In this document: positions 2,757 through 37,444 of the stretch, piece after piece
How positions within the stretch are numbered: the first letter of the stretch is position 1
Layout of the letters: each line of letters opens with the position of its first letter
Origin: Deefgea piscis
GTDB lineage: Bacteria > Pseudomonadota > Gammaproteobacteria > Burkholderiales > Chitinibacteraceae
Assembly (NCBI RefSeq): GCF_013284055.1
Contig: NZ_CP054143.1
Span: 3,162,001-3,226,000 of the forward strand
DNA: 64,000 bases
Direction of reading: 5' to 3'
Position numbers and translations under genes: made by a program
Notes under the pieces: generated by a model
The model's database searches: none
What the model saw: the letters and a program-made list of their open reading frames with translations, nothing else
Told to the model about the DNA's origin: nothing

Positions 2757-4829
2757 CTAGAGCTTAAATCCAGACACAATGGTTTTTAGATGTAAGGCCA
2801 TTTGCTCCAGATCTTTCACCGACGCCCCCACTTCAGACATTGCATCACTATTGCGTTGCGACATATTGCTGATGGTTTCGATGTTTTGCGCGATGTCGGT
2901 ACTGGCCGCCGCTTGTTCACGCGTGGCATTGGCAATGTCGCCAATATTGACCAGCATCTGCTCTGTACCAGCTCGAACCGTATTCATTGATTCGGCAGCT
3001 TGGCGCGACAACTGCACGCTCGCCCCCACCTGCTGCTGGGTCACTTGCATATGATCGCCCGCTTTATGGATCTCGCCTTGAATCGTGTTCACGATTTTAG
3101 AAATCTCAATCGTTGCTTCGCCCGAGCGCCCTGCTAGTTTTCGCACTTCATCGGCCACCACCGCAAAGCCGCGCCCCATATCCCCAGCGCGAGCCGCTTC
3201 AATCGCTGCGTTCAGTGCCAGTAAATTGGTTTGATCGGCAATTTCTTTAATCGTTTGTACAATCTGATTCACTTGCAAAGACTGTGTATTCAAGCTTTGC
3301 ATCGACGCCACTAAGTGCGCCATTGTTTCGTGAATTTGCGCGATTTCTTTCGCTACTTCGTCAACTTTAAACTGACTGGCCGAGGTTTCTTTACCGGTCT
3401 CACGTGCTGTTTGTTCAAAATCATGCGCTGAATCGGCAATGTGCTGAATACTAACAGTGACTTCCTCGACGCTTGCAGCGGTTGAGGTAGCCGCTTCAGC
3501 CTGATGAATTGACGAGGTTTTCACCGTTTCAGCCGGCCCCGCCAATTGCTGGCTGGCATGGCTCACTGCTTCACTTTGCGAGCGAACATCTAAAAACATC
3601 CCGCGCAGCGTAACGACAAATTGGTTAAACGCTTGCGCAGTACGGCCAATTTCATCTTGGCCATGAATCGGCAATTGCCGTGTTAAATCGCCCTGACCGC
3701 TGGAGACTTCTTCCATCGCCACGGCTAAACGACGCAGTGGGGCAATCAAGACATTAAGCACCACGCTCAATACCGCAACAATCAAAATAATGGCAATCAA
3801 GCCCACCACGATCGCCCAATTACGCACCGAAACTGCTTCGGCCACCACCACCGACTCAGGTACGACCACACCCACAGACCATGGTTGCTGGCTATTGCCC
3901 ATTTTGATCGGCTGATATTCATACAACAAACCATCACGTTCAAAATGCACCGCTTTACCGGCACGTAAATCGGTCATAAATCCAGCCGGAAAATCAGCCT
4001 CGTTGAGTTTTTTACCGGCGTTTGCCGCGTCTGGCGCAACCACATACAGGCCCGCGTTTGAAATCAAACTCACATGCCCCACACCAAAAGGCTTGGCTTG
4101 ACCGATGCTGGCCTGCAAAGAGGCCAAAGGCAAATCAACGGCGGCAACGCCTAAAAATTGTCCGGCGGCATTTTTAATCGCCACCACCAAGGAAGACAGC
4201 AACACTTGCTGGCCATTTACATCGTACGACGTTGGCTCAGTCACCGTGTCTTGCTGGCGCTGCTTAGGAACATAATAAAAGTCACCCCAACCGGCACTTT
4301 CATATGGCGCGGTATATTGCTGGGGGTTATTTCGGAATGGCTCAGCGGCAGCTTTTTGTGTCGAGCCCAATAATGTGTCTTGAATAATCTTGCCTTCACT
4401 ACGAACAATATAGGGGGTATATCGTCCTGTAGGATCATGCTTGGGCCAGTCTTGCCGATACCCATCATCTTTACCATCTAGCGCATTGGGCTCCCACACC
4501 ATATACAAACCGGAAGCCAAGGGCTGCGAGGCCAACATACTCATCATAACGTTATCGAGTACTTTACGCTCAGGAACACCAGTCGCTTGCATCCCGGTCA
4601 TTGCCAGCGCTAAATTGATGGGCAATTGATATGCGGCAGTAAACTGACCTTCAACTTGATCAGCATAAGCACGCGCTTGTTCTTGCAACCGCAATAAGCC
4701 TTGCGCCTTAGCCGATTGATACGCATTGCTGGCAATAATTAAAATCATCGCCGAAAAACCAATCACAATGGCGACAGTGGTAAACAACAAGATTTTTGTT
4801 CTTAAACTCATCCGGCTTAAGTGCAACAT
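2757..4829 (-). CDS. methyl-accepting chemotaxis protein with Cache-type sensor
   Basis: This 690-residue chemoreceptor has membrane segments at about residues 12-34 and 335-362 flanking a ~300-residue periplasmic part. That part resembles a double Cache ligand-binding domain ([15 protein letters not shown] and [12 protein letters not shown] motifs). A HAMP linker follows near 360-412, then the cytoplasmic signalling domain. The conserved hairpin tip [20 protein letters not shown] and [18 protein letters not shown] are present, so it should bind CheW/CheA. There is no C-terminal CheR-docking pentapeptide. Double Cache receptors often sense amino acids, organic acids or polyamines; the ligand cannot be read from sequence. 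The ATG at 4829 is preceded by GGA at a suitable distance. It is monocistronic, with its own terminator. Confidence 0.92.
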
Positions 4830-20551: not shown

Positions 20552-23500
20552 TTATGTCGGCGTCCATGCCTTCAACCAAAGATCAAGGTTTCCATCTTGC
20601 AACATCCAATCTGACTGTACCGCACGTTTTAGAGCATCTCCTGCCTTAGCTGTCGAATCTAAATCTTTGCAACATGCCCGAATCGCATCCACCCAATCCT
20701 TATGTTTATTTTTGACTCGAACCACGGGTAAATTACCAGCATACGGCTCAATATCAGTACATATAACGGGGTAGCCGCAGATACCATATTCCAACAAACG
20801 CAAATTGCTTTTGCAGCGATTAAATAAATTAAGCTCAAGTGGCGCCAAGGCCAAGTCTAAATTTAAACTTGCTAACTTGGCAGGATATTGATCTATTGGC
20901 ACGCCAGTATGAAACTCATGAACATAAGGCTTTAATTTATCAGGACACATCCCAAAAAATACCCACTCCACCTCATTTGCCAATTCCTTAACGACCCCAG
21001 CAATGAGCTCTAAATCGCCCGTATGACTTACACCCCCTGCCCATCCAACTCTAGGCTTTTCTGAGCAACGCCTAGATGACGATACCCCACCCCAAATATT
21101 AGGCGAGAGATAATTTCTGACTACGTGGATATTTGAATGCAAGCCTGAATAAGCCACTGCCAACTCATCGGTAGAAACCACAAAGCGATCCACCATCGTT
21201 AATGCCTTACGTAAAGTACGTAATATATCTTTTGGCATTTGATCACGATGCGCGCTCTTCATTGGCAAGTTGGGAAGATAATCATCTAGCTCATATATCT
21301 TAAATGATGGATTGCAATTTCTAGCTAGATTCATAAATTCAATTTGCTGATCAGTAATTTGCCGCTGAAATACCATTACATCAGGATTGAATTTTGCCAA
21401 TTCAAATGCAGGTAACAATTCAAAGGTTAATCCACCGGTAATTTTTAAAGCACTCTCAAGGGCAAAAAATGGCTGAATTAACCGATAATTACCGCAGCCC
21501 ATTTGGTCTGCTGGATGACATAAAATCTTTGGAGCAACAACCCATGAAACCGGATTCCACGACAATAGCGGTCTTTCCTCTAATTCAAAACCATTGCCAC
21601 TCAGAGTCAGATTTTTATTATAGGAAGGATCATTACCAATTTGCTTAAACCAGCGCGAATACATTTGCTTTTGTTCAGACTGGAAACGCAATAATTTTTC
21701 AGCGTGCTTGGTAGCATCAACAGTTGCTTGACTGACACTACCTTCATGAATTAAGACCGAATATGGAGTCCAAACCACCAGCAAACCCAATTGACCTACT
21801 TTCAAACAAAGATCGACATCATTATATGAAACTTTAAACGCTTCTTCGTCCATACCCCCAACACGAATATAAGTCGATTTTCGAATCATCAAACAAGCAG
21901 CAGTAACTACTGAATAATTTTGATCCAATTGCAAACGATGCATATATCCCGTCGATTGTGGCGACGCGCCAATTAGAGGATGATCAGCAGGACCGCGTAA
22001 ACCAAGCACAACACCGGCATGCTGAATACTACCATTTGGATACAGCAATTTAGCGCCAACGACACCAACATCATTACGCTGTGCATGATTAAGCAAGGCA
22101 GAGAGCCAATCTCCTTGTATAACCATCGTGTCATTATTCAAAAGCACTAAGTACTCACCATTTGAATGCTTAACAGCTTCATTATTAATAGCCGAAAAAT
22201 TAAACGGTTTTGAATAACGTATAACTCTAATTTTTGTCGATCCAAGTGATTCCAATCCTTGCAAATATGCCAAGGCATCAGCCTCATCGCTCTGATTATC
22301 AACGATGATAATTTCATAATTAGCGTATTGAGTTTTTTCTAGAACAGACTCGACACAACGCTTCAAGAGCACTAGCTGATTTTTCGTTGGAATAATAATG
22401 CTTACCAACGGGCATGCCGCATGCAAATAATTAACTCGAAGACTACCTTCAATCAAACCTTCACTTAGAGAATGAATGATGTTATTTCGATTTAGGTGAG
22501 ATTCAACAGCCAAAACAAAAGATTTATATTTTAATTCACTGATATTTTTTTGAGTTTGAGGCAAATTAATACTGCAGACCAATTCGGGCACATGACCAAT
22601 TGAATTAGCGCCATAAAAATCATACAGTTTTAGCAAGATATCAACCTGCTCAGCAGAATCAACAACATCACTTTGTAAGATGACTTTAACTTCCTGGCAA
22701 TTCCTAATGAATAAACATCCATCTGCATATGGAAAACTACGCATCATATCAATGTTAAAATTTGGCTTAAATCTTGGATTGACGGCAAGCCCCTGAATAT
22801 CCAAAAAGTCATCATCAGTATAAACACCCAATAAACTCTTGTTACTTTCTATATATGCACTTGTTAACAACAAACCATTAATAGAAAGCAAATCACCAGC
22901 ATCTACAAATACAGCCCAATCGGCTAAAATCAAACCCTGAACCGAAAATATAGAAGAATAAAAATTAGAATTGACTTGAAGCCATTGAATATCACTCGAA
23001 GGCTGAGGATTATTTAATGGAGATATAACTAAAATATTTACATTTCTATACAACTGTTGCGTTATTGATTTAATAGTAGCAATTACCAATTTCAAATCTG
23101 AATTTCGGTCTATTATGCAAATAGAAAACATTGCATGAGCCTTATTCATTAGCTCATTTTCATACCACAACGCATTTGAAGCAGAGAGAACCCTTTTTTC
23201 TTTCCATTTCAAATAATTGTCTTTTTCCACAACATATCTAGGATTCTTTATAGCACCTTGATAACCTGAATCAACTGTTATTAAGCCAGACTTAAAAGCA
23301 ACCAATGGTACAAGTCGTTCTAGTGCATGTGCCAATGTACCATCAAGTTGCCCTTGCTCAATTTCAAAATCTTCAATGTTAATATTTAAATTTTTAAAGG
23401 AATCAAGAACAATACCACGGCACCAAAACATACTTCCTGCAGGGTATTCATACTTTAATTCTGAAAATTCAAATCCAAGACGTAACGACAGTTTCTCAAG

Positions 23501-26032
23501 ATAAGCACGATTATGGATATAAGCATCTGCAAAAACAAGCGTACCTTGAGATGAAATAACACCAACATCTGGAAACTTATCAAAAATTGAAAATATATTA
23601 AATATTTCATTACGAACAGGAATAATCCCTCTCAGGATTTCATTTCGCCAATCATCGACAAAATCTGCATCCAAATGAGGTGACTTTTTAGTATGGAGCT
23701 TACACACAAAATCATAATTATTAAAATCCACTAGCTGAATTAGCTGCACCAATGGAGAAAAATCACGCCCTCGATTATCAAATGCATAAACATTTGCAAA
23801 AGGGAAATCCATTTTAATTAAGTCAACAACAACGCTTTTTAGTTTAATTGTGGTAGTAATAAACAAATCAAAAGAAAACTGCAAGGCTTTGAATTGGTTA
23901 CAAAAAAATCGCCACTGATCCAAGTAAAACAAATGAAGTACAATTGCAATCTTAGGGCCATTAATCAAGCCATTATTTACAGTGTTCACACATGAGGCAT
24001 CTGAATCATTACCCAAATAAGAAGGATTTAAATTGTAATAAAACTGAAGTGAACAAAGCTCATAAACGTCTTCTCGGTTTAAATTAGATATTTTTATTTT
24101 ACCAAACTCAAGATCAGTATTCTCTTTGTCTGAATTCAATGCTAAGACATCCTGCAATCTTTGATCAATTGCGAACTTCATATGGCTTATTTCATATCCA
24201 GTTTCAAAGATTAGTTGTTCAAAGTCTTTTTTAGCAAAAAATCGAATATGAGTAATATCCAACAAACCAGCCTCTTCATACTTCCATCTGCCAGCAGCCA
24301 AAGAATCCATCAACCAAAGATTACGCACATTAGGAATACTAATTATTATTTGTGCATTTGGCTTTAAATAGGGCTTTAAATCAACCATGATTTTCCATGG
24401 ATTGTATGTATGCTCGAGAACGTCAGCAAGAATTACAGCATCGAAAAAGTTATAACTAACCCCGCCAGCTAAGAAATCAATATCTTCAAATTTTCCAACA
24501 AAGACATGATCTAATTTTTCTTTTGCAATCTCTGCAGCCGCCTCATTAACTTCAATACCCCAAACTTTAGCACCATGAAAATGTGATTTAAGCAGCGCAC
24601 CATTACCACCTGCTGCACATCCTATATCAAGAACATGGCTAGGCTCAGAATTAAACATTGCGATAACATCAGCACGTGCCCCCTCATGATATACAGTTGA
24701 ATCTATATGTTCGATATCGAGACATTTCCGCCACAAAAACTCATTTTTTGTTGATGCATATCTACGTGACTTTTCTTGTATCAGATCGACAAGGCGAACA
24801 GCGGCTTGCCCATCATCTTTATAATTAAAATAATCTTTCTTTTTATTTGCATTTTCTACGATTAAAGAACGCAAGTTATCATTAGATAACAACTGATCAA
24901 TAGTAGATGCTAATTCATGCCAACTAGCACACAAGACTCCGTCATTAGCTCCGAATCCACCACCAGCAACACACCCAAATTCAGTTAAAACATTAATAGC
25001 CGGAACCTCTAATAACACAGCCTCAATTGAAATATTTGAATCAAAAGACACCACCAAATCAGAAATAGATACTAAAGATCGAGCATCACCAACATCATAA
25101 ATAATGTCTGAATGTACATCATATTTTTTAGCCATCTGATTAATGATATTTTGCTTAACCGAAAAATCTTCGCCAATCAATCTGTCTTTGATTACCAAAC
25201 AAAAACTCTGGCTTCGAGCACCAAAATAACTAGAGATTGAATTAAAAAACATTTCTATTTGTTTAACAAAATCTCTATCATCAAGAAAACTAAGATTCGC
25301 ATTCCATGTTGTTGCAAACAATACAATTGGCTTTGATATGTCGATTGAATGTTTACTATAAAAATATTTTTTAAATTCAACCTTGTTTTTAATCATATTA
25401 GAGTTATCATCCCATGCGGGATTTCCAACCAAAATGATATTGGCTTCATCAATACCTACATCTAAATAATATTCCGCACTACGCTGGCCATATACAGCGA
25501 AAAAATCAGACGCATACTCTTCAAATATGTAATCCCTACCAATCCCAGTGCCATGCACAAGCTGAAGCACAGGTATTGATTTACTTCGTGCCCATAAAGC
25601 TAGGATTTTGCTATTACACAGCACATCCTCATTTAATAAGATTATTTCCAAATCATAACCAGCCAACCAATTATCCATCTTTTCAAACCATGAATATAGC
25701 AAGCCAAAATCTCGTTCTATTATTTTTTTTATTATTTGATTCTCAGTTTCTCCGCCTAAAGAACTCGACAAATTCATAGCCGGAAATTGGTAACCAACAA
25801 TTAAATCAATCGCATTATCAACTTGTTTTTTAATTACAACATCTTCACAACCAGAATTACTAAAAGGCAACACTAGCAACTCTGAACCATGTGCCACAAC
25901 TAAATCACGCAATTCTTCCGAATAAGAATAGTCAGGGATAATTATCACTCGGCGATTTCGTTCAAGATAAGTCTTTAAAAAAGAGGTATTTTTCCCCCAC
26001 AGACAATAAAAAACAGCCAATTTATTATTCAT
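20552..26032 (-). CDS. giant multidomain glycosyltransferase/methyltransferase
   Basis: This 1826-residue cytoplasmic protein combines several sugar-handling domains. Residues ~1-420 resemble a surface-carbohydrate transferase (QLVHGTGIGRDY near 157-168 and SFDSNISIEAVLLEVPAINV at 329-348). Residues ~440-620 are a SAM methyltransferase (VLDIGCAAGG 467-476, ILADVLEH). Residues ~690-950 are RgpF/rhamnan-synthesis-like (CKLHTKKSPH, DDWRNEILRG). Residues ~965-1190 are a divergent GT-A-like region. Residues ~1207-1440 are a canonical GT2 domain (PLVSIIIPTKNQ, LLNNDT). Residues ~1500-1826 are a GT4-like GT-B domain (KIYELDDYLPNLP, FNRCKSNLRLLEYG). It is the last gene of the sugar operon and lies just upstream of flagellin, so flagellin glycan assembly is the likeliest role (inference). 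Start overlaps the previous gene by 4 bases. Confidence 0.8.
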   Translation of the reverse strand: MNNKLAVFYCLWGKNTSFLKTYLERNRRVIIIPDYSYSEELRDLVVAHGSELLVLPFSNSGCEDVVIKKQVDNAIDLIVGYQFPAMNLSSSLGGETENQIIKKIIERDFGLLYSWFEKMDNWLAGYDLEIILLNEDVLCNSKILALWARSKSIPVLQLVHGTGIGRDYIFEEYASDFFAVYGQRSAEYYLDVGIDEANIILVGNPAWDDNSNMIKNKVEFKKYFYSKHSIDISKPIVLFATTWNANLSFLDDRDFVKQIEMFFNSISSYFGARSQSFCLVIKDRLIGEDFSVKQNIINQMAKKYDVHSDIIYDVGDARSLVSISDLVVSFDSNISIEAVLLEVPAINVLTEFGCVAGGGFGANDGVLCASWHELASTIDQLLSNDNLRSLIVENANKKKDYFNYKDDGQAAVRLVDLIQEKSRRYASTKNEFLWRKCLDIEHIDSTVYHEGARADVIAMFNSEPSHVLDIGCAAGGNGALLKSHFHGAKVWGIEVNEAAAEIAKEKLDHVFVGKFEDIDFLAGGVSYNFFDAVILADVLEHTYNPWKIMVDLKPYLKPNAQIIISIPNVRNLWLMDSLAAGRWKYEEAGLLDITHIRFFAKKDFEQLIFETGYEISHMKFAIDQRLQDVLALNSDKENTDLEFGKIKISNLNREDVYELCSLQFYYNLNPSYLGNDSDASCVNTVNNGLINGPKIAIVLHLFYLDQWRFFCNQFKALQFSFDLFITTTIKLKSVVVDLIKMDFPFANVYAFDNRGRDFSPLVQLIQLVDFNNYDFVCKLHTKKSPHLDADFVDDWRNEILRGIIPVRNEIFNIFSIFDKFPDVGVISSQGTLVFADAYIHNRAYLEKLSLRLGFEFSELKYEYPAGSMFWCRGIVLDSFKNLNINIEDFEIEQGQLDGTLAHALERLVPLVAFKSGLITVDSGYQGAIKNPRYVVEKDNYLKWKEKRVLSASNALWYENELMNKAHAMFSICIIDRNSDLKLVIATIKSITQQLYRNVNILVISPLNNPQPSSDIQWLQVNSNFYSSIFSVQGLILADWAVFVDAGDLLSINGLLLTSAYIESNKSLLGVYTDDDFLDIQGLAVNPRFKPNFNIDMMRSFPYADGCLFIRNCQEVKVILQSDVVDSAEQVDILLKLYDFYGANSIGHVPELVCSINLPQTQKNISELKYKSFVLAVESHLNRNNIIHSLSEGLIEGSLRVNYLHAACPLVSIIIPTKNQLVLLKRCVESVLEKTQYANYEIIIVDNQSDEADALAYLQGLESLGSTKIRVIRYSKPFNFSAINNEAVKHSNGEYLVLLNNDTMVIQGDWLSALLNHAQRNDVGVVGAKLLYPNGSIQHAGVVLGLRGPADHPLIGASPQSTGYMHRLQLDQNYSVVTAACLMIRKSTYIRVGGMDEEAFKVSYNDVDLCLKVGQLGLLVVWTPYSVLIHEGSVSQATVDATKHAEKLLRFQSEQKQMYSRWFKQIGNDPSYNKNLTLSGNGFELEERPLLSWNPVSWVVAPKILCHPADQMGCGNYRLIQPFFALESALKITGGLTFELLPAFELAKFNPDVMVFQRQITDQQIEFMNLARNCNPSFKIYELDDYLPNLPMKSAHRDQMPKDILRTLRKALTMVDRFVVSTDELAVAYSGLHSNIHVVRNYLSPNIWGGVSSSRRCSEKPRVGWAGGVSHTGDLELIAGVVKELANEVEWVFFGMCPDKLKPYVHEFHTGVPIDQYPAKLASLNLDLALAPLELNLFNRCKSNLRLLEYGICGYPVICTDIEPYAGNLPVVRVKNKHKDWVDAIRACCKDLDSTAKAGDALKRAVQSDWMLQDGNLDLWLKAWTPT

Positions 26033-29340: not shown

Positions 29341-29813
29341 TCAACTACACCATTTAATTCTGCAAATTTATCAATATAATATCCAGAACGCACATTCATT
29401 GGATTACCATATACAAGAGAATACGGAGGAATGTTACACGCATCAACAACAGTACCAGCAGCAATCACGGTGTAAGCACCTATTACTGCACCACCTTTAA
29501 CTACTGAATGGCTACCGATAAATACATTATTTTCAATAGTTATGTTTTTTCTATCTATTTCATTAGATAGTCCGAGACAACGCTTATGCGAATCAGCACA
29601 ATTGATTGAAACAAAAGAAGCGATATCGCAGTTATTGCCAATTTTAATCATGGCTCCTTTTGCATTCACTTCAGACATTGCACCTATAAAAGTACCATCA
29701 CCAATCTCAGGATCTCCATTTATCCAAACTAAAGGATGAAAACGATTGATTTTAAAGGAGGTCAGCTCTGAAAATATTTCCGAAGCACTTTCTTTTGAAA
29801 AGTTAATACTCAT
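29337..29813 (-). CDS. left-handed beta-helix (hexapeptide) acyltransferase
   Basis: This 158-residue protein is built largely of hexapeptide repeats (IGDGTF, IGNNCDI, IENNVFIGSHSVVKGGAVIGAYTVIAAGTVV, residues ~35-130) and has the VYGNPM end motif (133-138) of acetyl-/acyltransferases that use acetyl-CoA. A catalytic histidine is plausible in GSHSVV. Lying next to a NeuB-type synthase, it may acylate an amino sugar. It could take the place of PseH, for which I see no GNAT-type gene in this operon (inference). Its start overlaps the synthase gene by 4 bases. Confidence 0.78.
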   Translation of the reverse strand: MSINFSKESASEIFSELTSFKINRFHPLVWINGDPEIGDGTFIGAMSEVNAKGAMIKIGNNCDIASFVSINCADSHKRCLGLSNEIDRKNITIENNVFIGSHSVVKGGAVIGAYTVIAAGTVVDACNIPPYSLVYGNPMNVRSGYYIDKFAELNGVVE

Positions 29814-30877
29814 AATAGTAAATCATCAATATTTATTTTATTTCCTAGTTGAATTGATTTTCTCGCCTTCTTTCCAATAACCAACTCTAGAAAATTCGGA
29901 GGTAAACCATCGCCAGGACGCCGTAAGCCAATATTTTTTTCATCCAAAATCGTGCCTGCTTGAATATTTTCCAATGCAACAATACTTCGACGAGCTTGAG
30001 TTCTCATTATTAACTCAGCTGCGGAGGGTCGAACAAACTGCTCTCCTTGCATTATGTATGCCGTGTGAATTGATTCAATCCAACATTTTAATTCACTTGG
30101 CTCTTCAGAAAACCAATGATCAGGCCCTACAAAATCATGACTCAATGTGAAATGCTTTTCAAAAATGCAAGCGCCTAAAGTAAGGGCCACTACAGAGGCT
30201 AATACTCCCTGAGTATGATCTGAAAATCCTAGAATTATATTTGGAAATGCATGCTTCAGAGCAATCAATCTACGTGCATTTACATCTTCTGATGGTGTTG
30301 GATATTGAGAAGTACAAACAAGTAGTGCTAATGGGTAGCCAGCAAACCACCCGATAGCATCTAATGCTTGATGAACTTCTGCGATGTCACTCATCCCACA
30401 AGATAGAATTATTGGTTTTTTTGATTCAGCATATTTTCTTAATAATTGTAAATTCGTAAGATCATCTGAACCAATTTTAATAGCAGGCACACCAATATCT
30501 AATAACAACATTAAATCAGAATGATTTTGCGGTGTTGAAAAAAATGTAATTCCAACTTCATCACAGTATTTTTTTATTTCAAGCCATTGAACATCACTAA
30601 ATTCATGTCGTTTAAACATATCGAGCATTGGCTCAGTGATATTTTCTCCTTGTGACTGGTAAGTAAACATTTGATAAGGATCACCACAAAATTCTTCCGC
30701 ACGAAATGTTTGAAATTTAACAGCATCAGCGCCAGCTTCTTTTGCAGCAACAATCATTGCCTTTGCTAAATCTATGTTTCCATTGTGGTTAATACCAACT
30801 TCTGCTATGCAAAATGGAGGACAGTTAGGACCTACTTCGCGCTCTCCAATTTTGATTGTGTTTTTTTCACTTATCAT
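29810..30877 (-). CDS. NeuB/LegI-type nonulosonic acid synthase (copy 1)
   Basis: This 355-residue enzyme condenses a 6-deoxy-hexosamine with phosphoenolpyruvate to give a nine-carbon sugar acid. The NeuB barrel is clear: CIAEVGINHNG (23-33), ADAVKFQTF, FFSTPQ, IKIGSDDLTN, LVCTSQYPTP, GFSDHT and EKHFTL. A C-terminal SAF (antifreeze-like) domain follows, with RRPGDGLPPNFLELVIGKKA (318-337). The NHNG-type motif groups it with NeuB/LegI rather than PseI, which has AELSxNH. A second, different NeuB paralogue is encoded at 32.6-33.7 kb in the same operon. The product could be a legionaminic-, pseudaminic- or sialic-type sugar. Confidence 0.85.
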   Translation of the reverse strand: MISEKNTIKIGEREVGPNCPPFCIAEVGINHNGNIDLAKAMIVAAKEAGADAVKFQTFRAEEFCGDPYQMFTYQSQGENITEPMLDMFKRHEFSDVQWLEIKKYCDEVGITFFSTPQNHSDLMLLLDIGVPAIKIGSDDLTNLQLLRKYAESKKPIILSCGMSDIAEVHQALDAIGWFAGYPLALLVCTSQYPTPSEDVNARRLIALKHAFPNIILGFSDHTQGVLASVVALTLGACIFEKHFTLSHDFVGPDHWFSEEPSELKCWIESIHTAYIMQGEQFVRPSAAELIMRTQARRSIVALENIQAGTILDEKNIGLRRPGDGLPPNFLELVIGKKARKSIQLGNKINIDDLLL

Positions 30878-30879
30878 CT

Positions 30880-31920
30880 TTACCTTTCTTCAATATCAAG
30901 AATTGATCTACAGCATCGCATTGCGCCCAACCCATCGACTAAATTCAATGCCAAATTCGACATTTTCTCAACAATATCGTTGTCAAAGTTTTCTAATGCC
31001 GTGTAATAATCATTGCTTGTTAATTTTGATGCCCACCCTAAAGAATAGACTACGCCATAGATTGATAAATTGTTAATCAACTCTTCTTGATTGCTTGCTA
31101 AAATTGATACGATAGCAGGTATACCTAAACAACAACGCTCCCAGCTATTCGATCCACCAGATCCTATAGCAATATCAGACAAATACATTAACTCACAAAT
31201 ATTACTGACATTACAGTGAAGATTCCATGAGTTTGTAATACACATCTCTTCGATTTTTTTCTTATCTGAATTAGACTCTCCAATTACCACATCAACATCT
31301 ATCGCAACATTAAAATCATTCACCCAATCCTTTAGACCATTTATTGCTTTAAGTGTTTCACCAGCATCATCTCCGCCGCTAAAAAAAACAAAAACTCGAT
31401 TAATATTTTTTTTTGCTACACAACCTTTAATTCTTTCAATTACAAACTCAGGTCTAAGCATTGCAAAACTAGGCCCAAGTAATTTTCTAGCATTTTTAGG
31501 AAGTAGATCTGAGTACAAAAAATCATATGTTAGTCTAAAATTCTGGTCAATTAAGATATGACAATCATGCACCCTATTTGGTAAATCATCAATCACGACT
31601 AATTTACTAACCTGATGCTTAACTTTTGTTTCCCAATCACTCCCAATCAAATAAGAATCGACTATAACAACTTCACAAAAAAGTGCTTCAACTAAGTCAA
31701 CTGTGAATTGAGCATCTTCATTCAAACTGATTGATTCATCTATATAAAATACATCAAAACCTAAACCATCAATCATTCCAGAAGGAAATCCATTCTCTTT
31801 ATTGCAAATAAATACACATTTAACGTCAAAATCAGTAAATTCCTTAGCTAAAGCCATACAGCGAATTAAATGACCTAAACCATTAAAAACCCCAGCATTA
31901 ACTCGAAATATTATATTCAC
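30880..31920 (-). CDS. pseG: PseG-like UDP-sugar hydrolase
   Basis: This 346-residue GT-B-fold protein matches PseG, which removes UDP from the 2,4-diacetamido trideoxy sugar in pseudaminic acid synthesis. Family features are FRVNAG..NGLGHLIRCMALA (residues 5-25, with the catalytic-type His in GLGHLIRC), VIVDSYLIG (near 90-98), KLVVIDDLPNR, and the nucleotide-binding GSGGSNSWERCCLGIPAI (near 252-269). PseG-like hydrolases can also be fused to or replaced by other enzymes, but here all motifs are present. It is two bases downstream of synthase copy 1 in coding order and overlaps the pseF gene by 4 bases. Confidence 0.84.
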   Translation of the reverse strand: MNIIFRVNAGVFNGLGHLIRCMALAKEFTDFDVKCVFICNKENGFPSGMIDGLGFDVFYIDESISLNEDAQFTVDLVEALFCEVVIVDSYLIGSDWETKVKHQVSKLVVIDDLPNRVHDCHILIDQNFRLTYDFLYSDLLPKNARKLLGPSFAMLRPEFVIERIKGCVAKKNINRVFVFFSGGDDAGETLKAINGLKDWVNDFNVAIDVDVVIGESNSDKKKIEEMCITNSWNLHCNVSNICELMYLSDIAIGSGGSNSWERCCLGIPAIVSILASNQEELINNLSIYGVVYSLGWASKLTSNDYYTALENFDNDIVEKMSNLALNLVDGLGAMRCCRSILDIEER

Positions 31921-32609
31921 TTAGAAAAACCTGTATATTTAGCAATTGCCAATGCAAGCTCATAATCTTCATAACTATCTATATCAATAGAACGCATAAA
32001 TGGCATGAAATACCCCTTCATTAAGGGTCCATAAAATTCACTGAATTTTAAAAAAGCGTTCACATTAACTGCGTATGTGCTACCATTTCCAGCGTATATC
32101 TCACCCATACTTTTGGCCTGACTTTGAACAATTTCAGGCCATACTGGCACCAAATATCCATCTATATTTTTATTTAATGCTTGATGTGGATAATGACTAA
32201 AATTTGTTATTGCAACTGAAAAGTCACATTTTCCTACTTCTAACAGTGACATAGTTTCTACTATATCTTTTGCTGTTCTCATTGGCGCCGTCGCATAACA
32301 ACAACATAGCGCGTCATACTCATGTCCAGCACTGGCCTCTCGAGATAAATAATCTAAACATACCTCAGCTACCGTGGCAGTATCAGATGAAAGATAAGCA
32401 GCTCGCATATCAACCACTGCCCCAGCTCGATATGCAATATCCGCGATTTCACAATCCTCAGTAGAAACAACCACCTTCTGAAATAATTGAGTTGATAATG
32501 CCGCTTCAACTGTATGTACCAACATTGGTTTACCACAAAAATCAATAATGTTTTTTCTGTGCAACCTTTTTGATCCGCCTCTTGCAGGAATTACCGCAAT
32601 ATTTTTCAT
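31917..32609 (-). CDS. pseF: PseF-like CMP-sugar cytidylyltransferase
   Basis: This 230-residue enzyme activates the nine-carbon sugar acid with CTP. The nucleotide loop AVIPARGGSKRLHRKN (residues 5-20), DFCGKPMLVHTVEAAL and CCCYATAPMRTAKDI are those of the NeuA/PseF/LegF family. The overall form is closest to PseF (short, no extra domain). It lies between the two synthase genes, so it may activate the products of either. Five bases separate it from the second synthase gene upstream. Confidence 0.86.
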   Translation of the reverse strand: MKNIAVIPARGGSKRLHRKNIIDFCGKPMLVHTVEAALSTQLFQKVVVSTEDCEIADIAYRAGAVVDMRAAYLSSDTATVAEVCLDYLSREASAGHEYDALCCCYATAPMRTAKDIVETMSLLEVGKCDFSVAITNFSHYPHQALNKNIDGYLVPVWPEIVQSQAKSMGEIYAGNGSTYAVNVNAFLKFSEFYGPLMKGYFMPFMRSIDIDSYEDYELALAIAKYTGFSK

Positions 32610-32614
32610 AGGAT

Positions 32615-33682
32615 TTAATCTTCCAAATCTGAATAATTTATTGCATGTTCTGCATGTAAATTTTTATTCAATCGCATGTGTTTTATTTTTTCGAATACGT
32701 CAGGCGAGATACCAAAACCAGGGCGTCTAAACTCAACTGCTACATCACAGAGGCGCTGACCCATTTCTGCTGATTCTTTAATATATACCGAACGTCTAAC
32801 ACTTAGCCTTCGCGTTAACTCCTCTTTATGTAAAATTCTTCTTTTAGTACCCAAAGCAGTTTCAACATCGCGAATAGTCTGAATAAAAGAATTCATTTCA
32901 AATGGTTCAAGTGAAAACACATGTTCAACACTACGCTGCATTCTATTTTCTGTTATTGTCTTCTCTAGCAAATTTACCCCCAATGCAAGCGCGGCAATGT
33001 CCATATCACACCCAGGGGTATGGTCTGAAAATGCGACAGGGTATGTAAACATTTGCTTTAAAGTTTTAATAATATTTAGGTTTATACTAGATAATCTTGC
33101 TGGATAACCAGATGGGCACTGATGAATGATAATATTTTCATTTCCTTCTGACCTTATGACATCTACAGCAGCTTCTACTTCACCTAAAGATGCACTTCCA
33201 GTATCAATTTGAATACACATCCCTGTTTTTGAAGCTTTTCTAATCAATGGAAAATGATTAATATCAGCTGAAGCAATTTTAATAGAATCACAACCAAGTT
33301 CTTCTAATAGTGCTATATCTTCATCGAATGATACGGTTGAAAAAAAAGCCAGCCCCAGATCATCACAATATTTTTTTAGCACTCGCCATTCATTATTAGT
33401 CAAGCATCGTCTGCATAAAAGTTCATAAAGTGATTCTTCTATTGTTTCTAATTTTCCAGTTTCTCGATCCACCAGAACATCATATGAAAATGTCTGTTTT
33501 TTATCTGCACATAATCGATCAGGATCAAAAATTTGAAATTTAACGGCATCAGCACCTGATTCTGCCGCATACTTAACTAAACGTTTCGCCGACTCAAGCC
33601 CATCATGTGTTGGACCAGCTTCAAATGTTATAAAACACGGTTCACCATCACCTACTTTTCTTTTCCCTATATATACTGACAT
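32615..33682 (-). CDS. NeuB family synthase (copy 2, divergent)
   Basis: This 355-residue NeuB-family protein has a different active-site start from copy 1: TFEAGPTHDG (19-28) in place of AEVGINHNG. The barrel features ADAVKFQIFDPDRLC, FFSTVSFDEDI, IKIASADINHFPLI, CPSGYPA, FSDHTPG and EKTITENR follow, then a SAF domain (RRPGFGISPDVFEKIKHMRL). It also carries an inserted region with DRETGKLETIEESL (~72-85). Similar second synthases occur in some flagellar and O-antigen clusters, but I cannot name the sugar. It sits between pseC and pseF, where pseI would be expected, so it may fill that role. Confidence 0.8.
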   Translation of the reverse strand: MSVYIGKRKVGDGEPCFITFEAGPTHDGLESAKRLVKYAAESGADAVKFQIFDPDRLCADKKQTFSYDVLVDRETGKLETIEESLYELLCRRCLTNNEWRVLKKYCDDLGLAFFSTVSFDEDIALLEELGCDSIKIASADINHFPLIRKASKTGMCIQIDTGSASLGEVEAAVDVIRSEGNENIIIHQCPSGYPARLSSINLNIIKTLKQMFTYPVAFSDHTPGCDMDIAALALGVNLLEKTITENRMQRSVEHVFSLEPFEMNSFIQTIRDVETALGTKRRILHKEELTRRLSVRRSVYIKESAEMGQRLCDVAVEFRRPGFGISPDVFEKIKHMRLNKNLHAEHAINYSDLED

Positions 33683-33693
33683 TTAGCAATCTC

Positions 33694-34851
33694 CTAATTA
33701 ACTAGTGCATTTGATAGACTATGGATAACATAATTAAAATCTTGATCATTTAATGATGGAAAAATTGGCAATGACAAAACCCGGTGGTAATATTTTTCTG
33801 CAACAGGGCAGTGTCCAATATTAAAGCCTAATTTTAGATAATACGGCTGTAAATACACTGGAATATAGTGAACATTTACTCCAATACCAGCACTACGTAA
33901 TTGCTCATATATTAATTTTCTTTTTGTCTCATCCACTTGAATAACAAATAAATGCCAAGCAGACTCTTGATCTGCATCTGCACGCATCAAATCAACATTT
34001 AGATTTGCCAACTCCACACGATAACGAATAGCCAACGCACGTCGTTTAGCAACAAATTCATTGATTCTTAAAAGTTGAGAGCAACCTAATGCTGCTTGTA
34101 TATCCGTCATTCGATAATTAAATCCAAGCTCAAGCTGCTGATAATACCAACCACCATCTGAAACATGAGTCATGTCTGTTTGTGCGCGAGTAATCCCATG
34201 GCTACGTAACCGTATCAATTTTCTGTATAACGCTTCGTCATTTGTGGTAATAGCACCGCCTTCACCTGTAGTAATAATTTTGACGGGATGAAAACTAAAT
34301 ATTGTAGCTTTGCTATATTTGCATAAACCTACTGCATGTCCTTGATATGTCGCGCCAATTGCATGAGCAGCATCTTCTAATATAAAAAACCCATATTTTT
34401 CTGCCAAAAAACTCAATGCTTGCATATCACAACTACGCCCAGAATAATGCACTGGTATTATTATTTTTGGTAAACAATTATTTTTTTCGGCTGATTCCAA
34501 TTTTTTTTTCAACGAATCAATACAGAGATTACCAGTGTCTATCTCTATATCTATAAAATCGATATTTGCACCACAGTATCTAGCACAATTTGCACTGGCA
34601 ACAAAAGTATTTGGGCTAGTCCAAACATAATCACCAACACCTACACCTAATCCCAAACAAGCCAAATGTAACCCGGCCGTAGCACTTGACAGTGCAACAG
34701 CAAAGCGCGCACCTGTTTGATCACAAATAGCTTGCTCAAAAACTTCAATTGCTGGACCTTGTGTCAAAAAATCTGATCGCAAAACTTCAATAACCGCATC
34801 TATATCAGACTTGTTTATATCTTGTCGTCCATAAGGGATATATTCGATCAT
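33694..34851 (-). CDS. pseC: PseC-like PLP aminotransferase
   Basis: This 385-residue fold-type I aminotransferase of the DegT/DnrJ/EryC1 family converts the 4-keto sugar made by PseB to the 4-amino sugar. The start IPYGRQDINKSDIDAVIEVL, FLTQGP, ATAGLHLA, TSPNTFVASANCARYCGA and the lysine motif (SFHPVKIITTGEGGAI, near 193-208, Lys198-199 region) agree with PseC. Its start overlaps the stop of pseB by 4 bases, as in many pseudaminic acid operons. Confidence 0.88.
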   Translation of the reverse strand: MIEYIPYGRQDINKSDIDAVIEVLRSDFLTQGPAIEVFEQAICDQTGARFAVALSSATAGLHLACLGLGVGVGDYVWTSPNTFVASANCARYCGANIDFIDIEIDTGNLCIDSLKKKLESAEKNNCLPKIIIPVHYSGRSCDMQALSFLAEKYGFFILEDAAHAIGATYQGHAVGLCKYSKATIFSFHPVKIITTGEGGAITTNDEALYRKLIRLRSHGITRAQTDMTHVSDGGWYYQQLELGFNYRMTDIQAALGCSQLLRINEFVAKRRALAIRYRVELANLNVDLMRADADQESAWHLFVIQVDETKRKLIYEQLRSAGIGVNVHYIPVYLQPYYLKLGFNIGHCPVAEKYYHRVLSLPIFPSLNDQDFNYVIHSLSNALVN

Positions 34852-35843
34852 TTTATTTGTCGATCCAAATCACGTAATTGCTCTATAGTTAAAAATGAAG
34901 CATTCGTATCTGATGTATACTTAAAACCATGGATAGCAGGCTGACCAACCTCACCCATTCCATTTTTCAGATAATCGCCTTGAACGATAAATTGAATTGA
35001 TGGTGTTATCACATAGTGATCATCAAATTCAATCGTATGTAAACTATCATCTCTGGAAATCATCATTTCATGCAATTTTTCACCAGGACGGATACCAATA
35101 ATACTATTACGTAAATTTGGCGCCATTGCACTTACCAAATCGACAATCCGCACTGATGGAATTTTTGGAACAAATAGCTCACCACCATACATACGTTCAA
35201 ATCCTTTAAATACAAAATCAACACCTTGATCTAAAGTAATCCAAAACCGAGTCATTAATACATCTGTTACTGGTAATTCTTTAGCGCCCTCCGCAATCAA
35301 TTTACGAAAAAATGGAACGACTGAACCACGCGAGCCAACAACATTTCCATAACGCACAACTGAAAATCGAGTGGGGTGATTTCCTGTTACATTATTAGCC
35401 GCTACAAAAAGTTTGTCGGATAATAACTTAGTAGCTCCATATAGATTTACAGGGCTTGACGCTTTATCGGTGGATAAAGCAATTACTTTTTGCACTCCAT
35501 TTTCTATGGCTGCATTAATAACATTTTCTGCGCCATTTACATTCGTGCGTATACATTCTGTTGGGTTATATTCTGCGGCTGGAACTTGTTTGAGTGCTGC
35601 AGCATGAATTACGAAGTCTACCCCACGCATTGCCTGTTTTAGCCGCTCTGCATCACGAACATCGCCAAGAAAATAGCGCATGCACGGCGCGTTTAATTCT
35701 TGTTGCATTTCAAATTGTTTCAATTCATCACGTGAAAAAACCACTACGCGAGCAGGCCGGTAATTTGTAAGTAATGTCCGAATAAATTGCTTGCCAAATG
35801 AACCAGTACCACCAGTAATTAGAATCGATTTATTATTAAACAT
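34848..35843 (-). CDS. pseB: PseB-like UDP-GlcNAc 4,6-dehydratase (inverting)
   Basis: This 331-residue short-chain dehydrogenase/reductase catalyses the first step of pseudaminic acid synthesis from UDP-GlcNAc. The NAD(P) loop ITGGTGSFGKQF (8-19) and FSRDELKQFEMQ are typical of PseB/FlaA1, and ALSTDKASSPVNLYGATKLLSDKL contains the family's active-site region. I chose ATG 35843, with GAGG seven bases before it, rather than an upstream in-frame codon. It is the first gene of the sugar operon. A possible -35 element (TTGGCA) lies upstream, but no convincing -10 was found. Confidence 0.88.
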   Translation of the reverse strand: MFNNKSILITGGTGSFGKQFIRTLLTNYRPARVVVFSRDELKQFEMQQELNAPCMRYFLGDVRDAERLKQAMRGVDFVIHAAALKQVPAAEYNPTECIRTNVNGAENVINAAIENGVQKVIALSTDKASSPVNLYGATKLLSDKLFVAANNVTGNHPTRFSVVRYGNVVGSRGSVVPFFRKLIAEGAKELPVTDVLMTRFWITLDQGVDFVFKGFERMYGGELFVPKIPSVRIVDLVSAMAPNLRNSIIGIRPGEKLHEMMISRDDSLHTIEFDDHYVITPSIQFIVQGDYLKNGMGEVGQPAIHGFKYTSDTNASFLTIEQLRDLDRQIK

Positions 35844-35947
35844 GAGTACCTCATTTAACCTATAAATAGCGACATGCATAGCATTGTGCCAATTAAATCA
35901 GCACTTGCATCGCTACCAGTAAAAACTTAGTCCATCTTATTAAATAA

Positions 35948-35978
35948 AAAAGGGCACTACCAGAAGTAGCGCCCTTTT
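35948..35978 (-). terminator. galU terminator
   Basis: AAAAGGGCACTAC and GTAGCGCCCTTTT form a stem with one mismatch; on the minus strand it is followed by TTTTTTATTT. It lies 20 bases after the galU stop and separates galU from the pseB operon. Confidence 0.85.
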
Positions 35979-35998: not shown

Positions 35999-36874
35999 TT
36001 ACTTTGCTTGGCAAAAGTCTTTCAAATACGCCGTAAATTCTTCACCTACTTCGTGGTGTTTCATCCCCAATTCAACCGTCGCTTTTAAAAAGCCGATTTT
36101 ACTGCCGCAGTCGTAGCGGGTGCCTTCGAGTTTGTGGGCGAGGATGTGTTGCTCTTGCATTAAGGCAAAAATGCCGTCAGTAAGTTGGATCTCGCCACCT
36201 TTGCCCGGCTGCACGTGTTGCAAGTGATGGAAAATCCGCGGGGTAAGGATATATCGACCAACAACGGCCAAATTTGAGGGTGCTTCTTCCGGTTTTGGTT
36301 TTTCAACGATATTGCCAATGCGCAAACGGCCAGCGTGCTCAGACACTTCAACAATGCCGTAGCTACCGGTTTCTTCCATTGCCACTTTTTCCACCCCGAG
36401 CACCGAGCAATGCGTGTCGTCAAATACGTCGACCATGCGTTTCATTTCAGACACGCCATTGCCGTCGATTAAATCGTCCGCCAAAATCACCGCAAATGGC
36501 TCATCACCCACCACTGGCTTCGCGCACAATACCGCGTGCCCCAAACCCAAGGCTTCGGGCTGACGAATATAAATACACGTTACCGATTTAGGAATAATTC
36601 CGCGCAAAATCTCGAGCAATTTGGTTTTTTGTTTGGCTTCTAAATCCGCCTCTAACTCACCGGCTTTATCAAAGTGATCTTCAATACTGCGTTTATGCCG
36701 ACCGGTGATAAAAATCATTTCGGTAATGCCCGCAGCCAATGCCTCTTCAACCGCGTATTGAATCAACGGCTTATCGACGATCGACATCATTTCTTTGGGG
36801 CTGGCCTTGGTGGCTGGCAAGAAACGCGTCCCCATGCCAGCGACAGGGAACACGGCTTTGCGGATTTTTTGCAT
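35999..36874 (-). CDS. galU: UTP-glucose-1-phosphate uridylyltransferase GalU
   Basis: This 291-residue enzyme makes UDP-glucose from UTP and glucose-1-phosphate for surface polysaccharides. The start [20 protein letters not shown] and the motif [21 protein letters not shown] are diagnostic; the EKP motif ([11 protein letters not shown]) and [10 protein letters not shown] are present. The ATG at 36874 is preceded by AAGGAAG six bases away and gives the family's normal N-terminus. The reading frame stays open upstream for 67 more codons, which encode a Cro-like helix-turn-helix (36875-37075). Two products are therefore possible: GalU alone from this internal start, or a 358-residue fusion. Confidence 0.92.
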
Positions 36875-37075
36875 GGAACTTCCTTGTTGAACAGGTGGCG
36901 CGATCAAGCCTAGGCGCAAAGCAGCGCCCATCACTTGATCGGATTGTTTTTGATTGAGTTCATCCGGCCACTGCGAAACCGCAGAACGCCCCAAGCCCAA
37001 AGCTTCGGCGAGACGGGTTTGCGAACCAAATAATTGTAGAGCTTCAGACTTACGCATGGCGTTATGTTTAATCAT
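36875..37075 (-). other. in-frame Cro-like helix-turn-helix extension of galU
   Basis: These 67 codons precede galU in frame with no stop codon. From the ATG at 37057 they read [23 protein letters not shown], then [20 protein letters not shown]. The pattern EAL-x2-FGS-x-T-x-LA-x-ALG-x3-AVSQW is that of small Cro/DicC-type phage-like repressors. A short linker ([11 protein letters not shown]) connects to GalU. No good ribosome site is visible for either upstream ATG (37075, 37057). If translated from there, the product is a DNA-binding/GalU fusion. If not, the stretch is a relic. The operator-like palindromes around the start favour function. Confidence 0.7.
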
Positions 37076-37082
37076 TTAAACA
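37065..37082. promoter_or_regulatory. palindrome TGTTTA-N6-TAAACA, site 1
   Basis: TGTTTAATCATTTAAACA is an 18-bp palindrome overlapping the first possible ATG of the HTH-GalU frame. A second site with the same half-sites and spacing lies 49 bp further upstream. This is the expected layout for autoregulation by a Cro-like protein. Confidence 0.6.
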
Positions 37083-37444
37083 GCAAAGTCAATACTTACA
37101 TCGACTTAAAATTTGTTTATTTTTTTAAACAAAATGTACATGCCGCTGGCTTGGTGCTGTATTTGCCGTCGAACAATGTGCCACAGCCAATATTCGCCCA
37201 AAACTCAAACACCAAAACAAAACCGGCACGGAAAATAAAGCGACAAACTCAGCAAGGTCACCATATAAGGCAATTTGCGTGCACTTGCTCAAGTCACAAC
37301 TGCGCGAGCCGAATGATTCAAGCCGACATACGCTTGCTTTTACTGGCAAACCATAAGCCCACAAGCCGCCCACATATCCAATAGGTATACGAGCGCAAGC
37401 TTGATCAAAAAAAGCGCTGCAAGCAGATACCCCACAGCTCTACC
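37076..37444. other. intergenic region between ligA and galU
   Basis: About 370 bases between the ligA stop and the first possible HTH-GalU start. The galU-proximal 60 bases are A+T-rich and hold both palindromes and a TTGACT that could be a -35 box (37092-37087). In the rest, open frames of up to ~105 codons have no coding character, and I see no RNA gene or clear ligA terminator. Confidence 0.5.
37114..37131. promoter_or_regulatory. palindrome TGTTTA-N6-TAAACA, site 2
   Basis: The same half-sites as site 1, with six T residues as spacer; the symmetry extends one base outward on each side beyond the half-sites (TTGTTTA...TAAACAA). It lies upstream of the putative galU promoter. Confidence 0.6.

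Follow-up and report, generated by a model that had tools for sequence, protein, structure and literature searches.

The galU gene of Deefgea piscis raises the question of why the frame for UTP--glucose-1-phosphate uridylyltransferase (GalU) should begin with a DNA-binding domain of phage type, and which DNA such a domain would bind. The window analyzed here is a stretch of 64,000 nucleotides (contig NZ_CP054143.1, positions 3,162,001 to 3,226,000), and all coordinates below refer to it unless another genome is named. The best explanation of what we find, and one that we hold to be likely, is that the galU gene of Chitinibacteraceae encodes its own repressor: a leaderless Cro-GalU would be made together with an internally started GalU and would close a negative feedback loop on the promoter.

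A Cro-type domain joined in frame to GalU

The minus-strand frame from 37075 to 35999 is open throughout its 358 codons, as a check of the open reading frames in the window confirms. Residues 71-332 of this frame are GalU according to TIGR01099 (373.3 bits against a cut-off of 326.8, with model positions 1-261 of 261 covered). The GalU part is 60-66% identical to the solved Burkholderia GalU, and a 12-residue motif and a VEKP segment, which we take to be GalU motifs, are visible in the family alignment. Uridylyltransferase activity is predicted by homology for this 291-residue part (35999-36874, minus strand). The extension alone matches Pfam P22_Cro (PF14549) with 33.7 bits, above the cut-off of 30.2, over positions 1-33 of the 60 in the profile; the whole ORF scores 29.9 bits, slightly under the same cut-off. 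A profile built from the family's extensions finds P22 Cro itself (1rzs) as its best solved match, at E 1.9e-8, which places the domain in the same family as P22 Cro and DicC. Its solved relatives are free-standing proteins of 61-79 residues, unlike the fused domain described here, which an enzyme carries at its N-terminus. From the profile matches, the alignment and the fold model, the Cro-like domain occupies residues 1-50 of the long form (36908-37057, minus strand), followed by a linker, residues 51-61 (36875-36907, minus strand), whose length differs between loci by whole codons. Enzyme and DNA-binding domain are thus found in one chain, both assigned by homology through Pfam, NCBIfam and the fold model. 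A free-standing 67-residue P22_Cro protein (50.9 bits) is encoded elsewhere in the same genome, at G000:C1:2679220-2679360; proteins of this type are a possible source of the fused domain.

The AF2 model of Cro-GalU, computed from a 60-row alignment, has a mean pLDDT of 89.5. Its N-terminal domain is confident (block means of pLDDT 87-97) and consists of four helices, at residues 3-10, 13-20, 24-28 and 36-48, and so is all-helical, as a P22_Cro helix-turn-helix should be. The linker, at residues 51-60, is modeled with low confidence (mean pLDDT 60), and the GalU body, mostly above 90, keeps its fold intact. The first Foldseek hit for the model is the Burkholderia GalU 5i1f, with a TM score of 0.94 by target length and a nucleotidyltransferase fold.

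The sequence-only reading had claimed that GalU is fused in frame to a Cro-like domain and had proposed a search of related genomes for the same extension. The open frame and the P22_Cro and TIGR01099 matches bear out the fusion, and the comparison with relatives does not speak against it: a dedicated search found the extension open in 40 of the 43 Chitinibacteraceae genomes, from 10 of 11 genera, in frames of 356-411 codons with no stop within the match. The three genomes without it (G015, G024 and G032; 93-99% complete) belong to genus g10, the sole genus without the fusion, and no match to GalU at E <= 1e-20 was found in them. In a first survey, of 61 genomes, 34 galU orthologues of the same family aligned from residue 1-7 of the long frame, and order-level galU genes, together with a second galU of genome G010, matched only from residue 56-69. 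That second gene (G010:C4:118574-119428; listed as both L040 and L135) is an unfused GalU paralogue that stands beside the fused gene in one genome. The extension profile was also run against 49 galU frames. All seven family fusions matched at E <= 3.2e-34, and ordinary GalU (TIGR01099), the same enzyme, lacked the extension in all 41 distinct unfused genes examined, with no match better than E 0.05 (42 frames, since L040 and L135 are the same gene).

All 22 loci confirmed in a scan of 84,980 species genomes, which had yielded 41 pattern stretches, are fused to galU. Twenty of them are labeled as Deefgea (4), Jeongeupia (1), Silvimonas (2), Andreprevotia (3), Chitinibacter (1), Amantichitinum (1), Chitinolyticbacter (1), Iodobacter (3), Chitinilyticum (2) and Chitiniphilus (2); the remaining two are metagenome bins labeled Janthinobacterium and Proteobacteria, whose extensions resemble those of Iodobacter. 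No fusion was seen outside the family in 399 genomes of the order: 26 matched, 13 of them family members, all 13 fused as judged by frame length, and the 13 non-family matches were weaker, in frames of 57-867 aa that were mostly short and were not each checked for galU. Among 57 of 398 phylum genomes that matched PF14549, the window locus was the sole one recognized as galU, a count that leaves out the other frames of 250-600 aa.

The selection estimates and site counts that follow come from an alignment of 34 family loci, out of the 40 fused genomes eventually known; these loci are related, and the counts are therefore not independent. Within the extension, 26 of 61 positions are invariant. 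From 18 chosen pairs, some of which share a member, the helix-turn-helix domain has a pooled dN/dS of 0.081, the linker one of 0.538 and GalU one of 0.031; by these ratios the helix-turn-helix domain is under strong purifying selection and the linker is not. The low ratio, together with a linker that changes length by whole codons, argues that selection maintains the domain at the protein level and in the reading frame of GalU, with a far less constrained linker between the two. We give virtually no credence to the view that the extension is an artefact of annotation, either a frame that is open by chance or a phage remnant lying before galU. The domain is indeed phage-like, but an extension that 40 of 43 genomes from ten genera preserve as an open frame, with so low a dN/dS and so many invariant residues, does not look like debris, and a chance open frame is ruled out by the dN/dS and the family-wide conservation.

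Paired palindromes in the galU promoter

If the domain binds DNA, candidate operators lie close at hand. Two 18-bp palindromes with the consensus TGTTYA-N6-TRAACA are found upstream of galU in 34 of 34 aligned loci, the proximal one just before the start codon. In the window, the putative distal operator is TGTTTAAAAAAATAAACA (37114-37131, minus strand) and the putative proximal operator is TGTTTAAATGATTAAACA (37065-37082, minus strand), which lies between the -35 and -10 elements and overlaps the latter. On a scale that ends at 18 and treats the six N as matching, the proximal palindrome scores 18 in 29 loci and 17 in the other 5, and the distal one 18 in 24, 17 in 8 and 16 in 2; shuffled upstream DNA reaches 16 in 2% of trials and 17 in 0.2%. 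Spacing between the two is 49 bp in 24 of the 34 loci, 48 in 5, 50 in 4 and 51 in 1. When the loci are aligned on the proximal site, the preceding columns carry 0-0.8 bit, with the exception of TTGAC (1.7-2.0) and of the distal palindrome (at most 1.6, a value blurred by the spacing). By a relaxed pattern, both palindromes are also present in 21 of the 22 loci confirmed in the scan of species genomes, the other (L072) showing the proximal one. In galU loci without the extension, the strict pattern was found in none of 12 within the 400 bp before the match.

The 3.43-Mb genome of the window contains the exact pattern twice, both times at galU, and the reversed-pattern control not at all. With one mismatch allowed, 37 sites are found against 33 in the reversed control, so that no wider regulon can be claimed in this genome. 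Across the 43 family genomes, exact sites number 1-8 in each against 0-6 for the control (146 in total against 33), and about 53 of the 146 lie at galU in the 34 aligned genomes; outside galU, other genera thus exceed the number of sites to be expected from the control. Among the matches listed, several exact sites from different genomes have the same GC-rich centre, and these may belong to coding sequence. In the galU-less genus g10, the two operator-like sites with ORFs listed adjoin genes that read as unrelated; at L050 (G024:C57), positions 4001-4018, the palindrome TGTTTATTATATTGAACA stands directly before an apparent XRE-cupin regulator gene and is probably a similar-looking but unrelated operator.

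It could be argued from this family-wide surplus, and from the similar single sites near other genes of galU-less genomes, the one before the XRE-cupin gene included, that the palindromes belong to another regulator and that the fused Cro domain does something else, such as DNA tethering or folding. We think this quite improbable. Sites and fusion occur together in all 34 aligned loci, neither was found in the 12 galU loci without fusion, and the window genome contains no further exact sites, as would be expected for a dedicated autoregulator. Control of its own gene by the longer product, which had been suggested from the single sequence, is supported by this comparison, and we infer that the Cro domain binds the paired palindromes in its own promoter and represses from there.

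The placement of the sites relative to the promoter fits repression. The -35 element TTGACT lies at 37087-37092 (minus strand); 31 of 34 loci have TTGAC 10 nt ahead of the proximal palindrome. It is followed after a 17-bp spacer by a putative -10 element, AAACAT, at 37064-37069 (minus strand; [AG]AACAT in 30 of 34). From the -10 element to the outer ATG are 5-7 nt across loci, and a pyrimidine directly precedes this ATG in 26 of them. With this geometry, the RNA should begin at or next to the ATG at 37057. A promoter scanner reported none over the galU region, and this scanner needs a -10 closer to consensus than the weak AAACAT. Downstream, an intrinsic terminator-like hairpin follows galU at 35948-35978 (minus strand), with counterparts in 25 of 34 loci, and in the window another follows the upstream gene, an 804-residue DNA ligase-like ORF that we take to be ligA; the hairpin scan of the galU region found 4 hairpins against a mean of 2.5 in shuffled sequence. 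Since hairpins stand behind both genes, galU is probably transcribed alone, as a single-gene transcription unit.

The role of the distal site is less obvious. A spacing of 49 bp corresponds to about 4.7 helical turns, which is not an integer, so that cooperative binding on the same face is not implied. Relative to the predicted start, the centre of the distal site is near -66, a distance at which upstream activators also bind, and the site could serve activation instead. If the protein repressed from the proximal site and activated from the distal one, it would make a lambda-like switch that holds galU within a band of expression. The retention of both sites at near-constant spacing is compatible with this arrangement, which we nevertheless judge rather unlikely; constant spacing fits cooperative repression as well.

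Two conserved start codons in one frame

The sequence-only reading had begun the long form at 37075, with an extension of 67 residues, and had proposed a second start for GalU within the same frame. The first of these positions does not stand. The ATG at 37073-37075 (minus strand) lies at the centre of the proximal palindrome and is present at that place, six codons above 37057, in only the 7 Deefgea loci of the 34; we judge it to be operator DNA and not a start. The ATG at 37055-37057 (minus strand), which in the window follows the -10 element by 6 nt and has no Shine-Dalgarno sequence, is conserved in 34 of 34 loci and is the predicted 5' end of a leaderless mRNA. The long form therefore most likely starts at 37057, which shortens the extension to 61 residues. 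Seventeen of the 34 loci have an in-frame ATG 3, 5 or 6 codons above the conserved outer start; in the 10 that are not Deefgea it lies 3 or 5 codons above, in or beside the palindrome and the -10 element. A transcript beginning further up could use one of these codons.

The proposal of two starts fares better, as both codons are conserved. The inner start, for ordinary GalU (36872-36874, minus strand), is likewise ATG in 34 of 34 loci, and is preceded by a Shine-Dalgarno-like AAGGA (36881-36885, minus strand), recognized in the locus alignment and by anti-SD hybridization. Hybridization of -4 kcal/mol or lower is found at the inner start in 34 of 34 loci, at the outer start in 0 of 34 and at 46 of 227 internal Met controls. 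Against a null of synonymous codons, the inner site is only modestly unusual at each locus (the median p is 0.12, with values under 0.1 in 12 of 34 loci and under 0.05 in 5). The argument for it comes from its constancy within a changing linker: all 34 loci keep a Shine-Dalgarno-like site at 6-10 nt upstream of the inner ATG, in surroundings whose letters differ.

This evidence also bears on whether two products are made at all. If only the long Cro-GalU were produced, enzyme and repressor would be one molecule, the internal ATG would be unused and its likeness to a Shine-Dalgarno site would be an ancestral leftover. In favour of this reading, many unfused GalU genes begin at the equivalent Met, the fusion is continuous, with a linker that varies solely by whole codons, and the synonymous null is only weakly beaten. 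We still find a single long product unlikely, because the linker has changed far more freely than its neighbours (dN/dS 0.54) and yet the Shine-Dalgarno-like site persists in every aligned locus, and because it is the long form that lacks such a site. Production of both Cro-GalU and ordinary GalU from one frame is the reading that we prefer.

In the mechanism that we propose, RNA polymerase would start at the ATG at 37057, or no more than one or two bases away from it, and yield a leaderless mRNA. Ribosomes loading at the 5'-terminal AUG would make a few long chains, Cro-GalU of 352 residues, and ribosomes initiating at the internal Shine-Dalgarno site and the ATG at 36874 would make ordinary GalU of 291 residues. 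The GalU oligomer would bring Cro domains together, allowing them to occupy the palindrome that separates the -35 and -10 elements; its partner, 49 bp farther upstream, could be occupied cooperatively. The promoter would then be blocked when GalU is plentiful, which amounts to negative feedback. GalU is a tetramer or dimer of dimers, and the E. coli GalU entry 2e3d contains four chains; with such an oligomer, two Cro pairs would be on offer for two operators. A further elaboration, which we put forward tentatively, is that the gene acts as a metabolic governor by itself. Long and short chains would be mixed in one oligomer, in a ratio set by leaderless versus Shine-Dalgarno initiation and hence by the state of the ribosomes, and UTP, glucose-1-phosphate or UDP-glucose, bound in the active site, would decide whether the Cro domains reach across the operators. 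Sensing of UTP or glucose-1-phosphate had already been suggested from the single sequence.

Trigger enzymes and the supply of UDP-glucose

By analogy, Cro-GalU may work like a trigger enzyme of the NadR, PutA and BirA kind. BirA has an N-terminal DNA-binding domain and controls the biotin operon, and the DNA-binding fold of PutA differs from the Cro type. The trigger enzymes of E. coli named in passages of one published account are PutA, BirA, PepA, PyrH and NadR (PMC8249747). Nearest in logic is NadR of Enterobacterales, described in part of another report as a repressor in which an N-terminal helix-turn-helix is joined to a nucleotidyl-transferring enzyme, with the helix-turn-helix present in one lineage and most relatives being plain enzymes (PMC12421817). 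Cro-GalU, too, would be a nucleotidyl-transferring enzyme with an N-terminal helix-turn-helix limited to one lineage. The enzyme families differ, however: NadR combines its helix-turn-helix with NMN adenylyltransferase and ribosylnicotinamide kinase, and neither of these domains is among the Pfam and NCBIfam matches of Cro-GalU. NadR also represses several other NAD genes, whereas the exact sites for Cro-GalU in the window genome are those of its own promoter only. PutA, a proline dehydrogenase and the repressor of putA and putP, is said in the passages on trigger enzymes to bind only its own control region (PMC8249747), a tie like the one proposed here, but its enzyme is unrelated to GalU and its control region is described there as divergent and common to a transporter gene. 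BirA, the biotin-protein ligase, shares the status of trigger enzyme in the same passages (PMC8249747) and is also unrelated to GalU. No fusion of GalU with a helix-turn-helix was described in the titles and abstract openings listed by our literature searches, a coverage outside which most subscription journals fall.

Adjoining galU on the minus strand (29810-35879) are genes for two NeuB-family synthases (29810-30877 and 32615-33682), a DegT aminotransferase (33694-34851) and a Polysacc_synt_2 dehydratase (34848-35879), a cluster that probably serves synthesis of a nonulosonic (pseudaminic or legionaminic) acid; the dehydratase lies in the galU flank of 6 of the 34 family loci, for which short flanks were covered. 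Further along the same strand, at 20552-26032, is encoded an 1826-residue protein with methyltransferase, RgpF (rhamnan synthesis) and family 2 glycosyltransferase domains.

GalU makes UDP-glucose, at which the routes to envelope sugars, to capsules and to storage diverge. Nearly all of one bacterial family seems to have coupled this enzyme to the promoter of its own gene through a captured phage-type repressor domain, and Cro-GalU would add a new enzyme class to the trigger enzymes. The comparative evidence is unusually clean, with one target carrying two sites in the window genome and both galU sites kept across ten genera. The gene would also be a natural case of one frame that yields a regulator from a leaderless start and an enzyme from an internal one. 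If the metabolic governor is true, the supply of UDP-glucose would be sensed directly by the enzyme that produces it.
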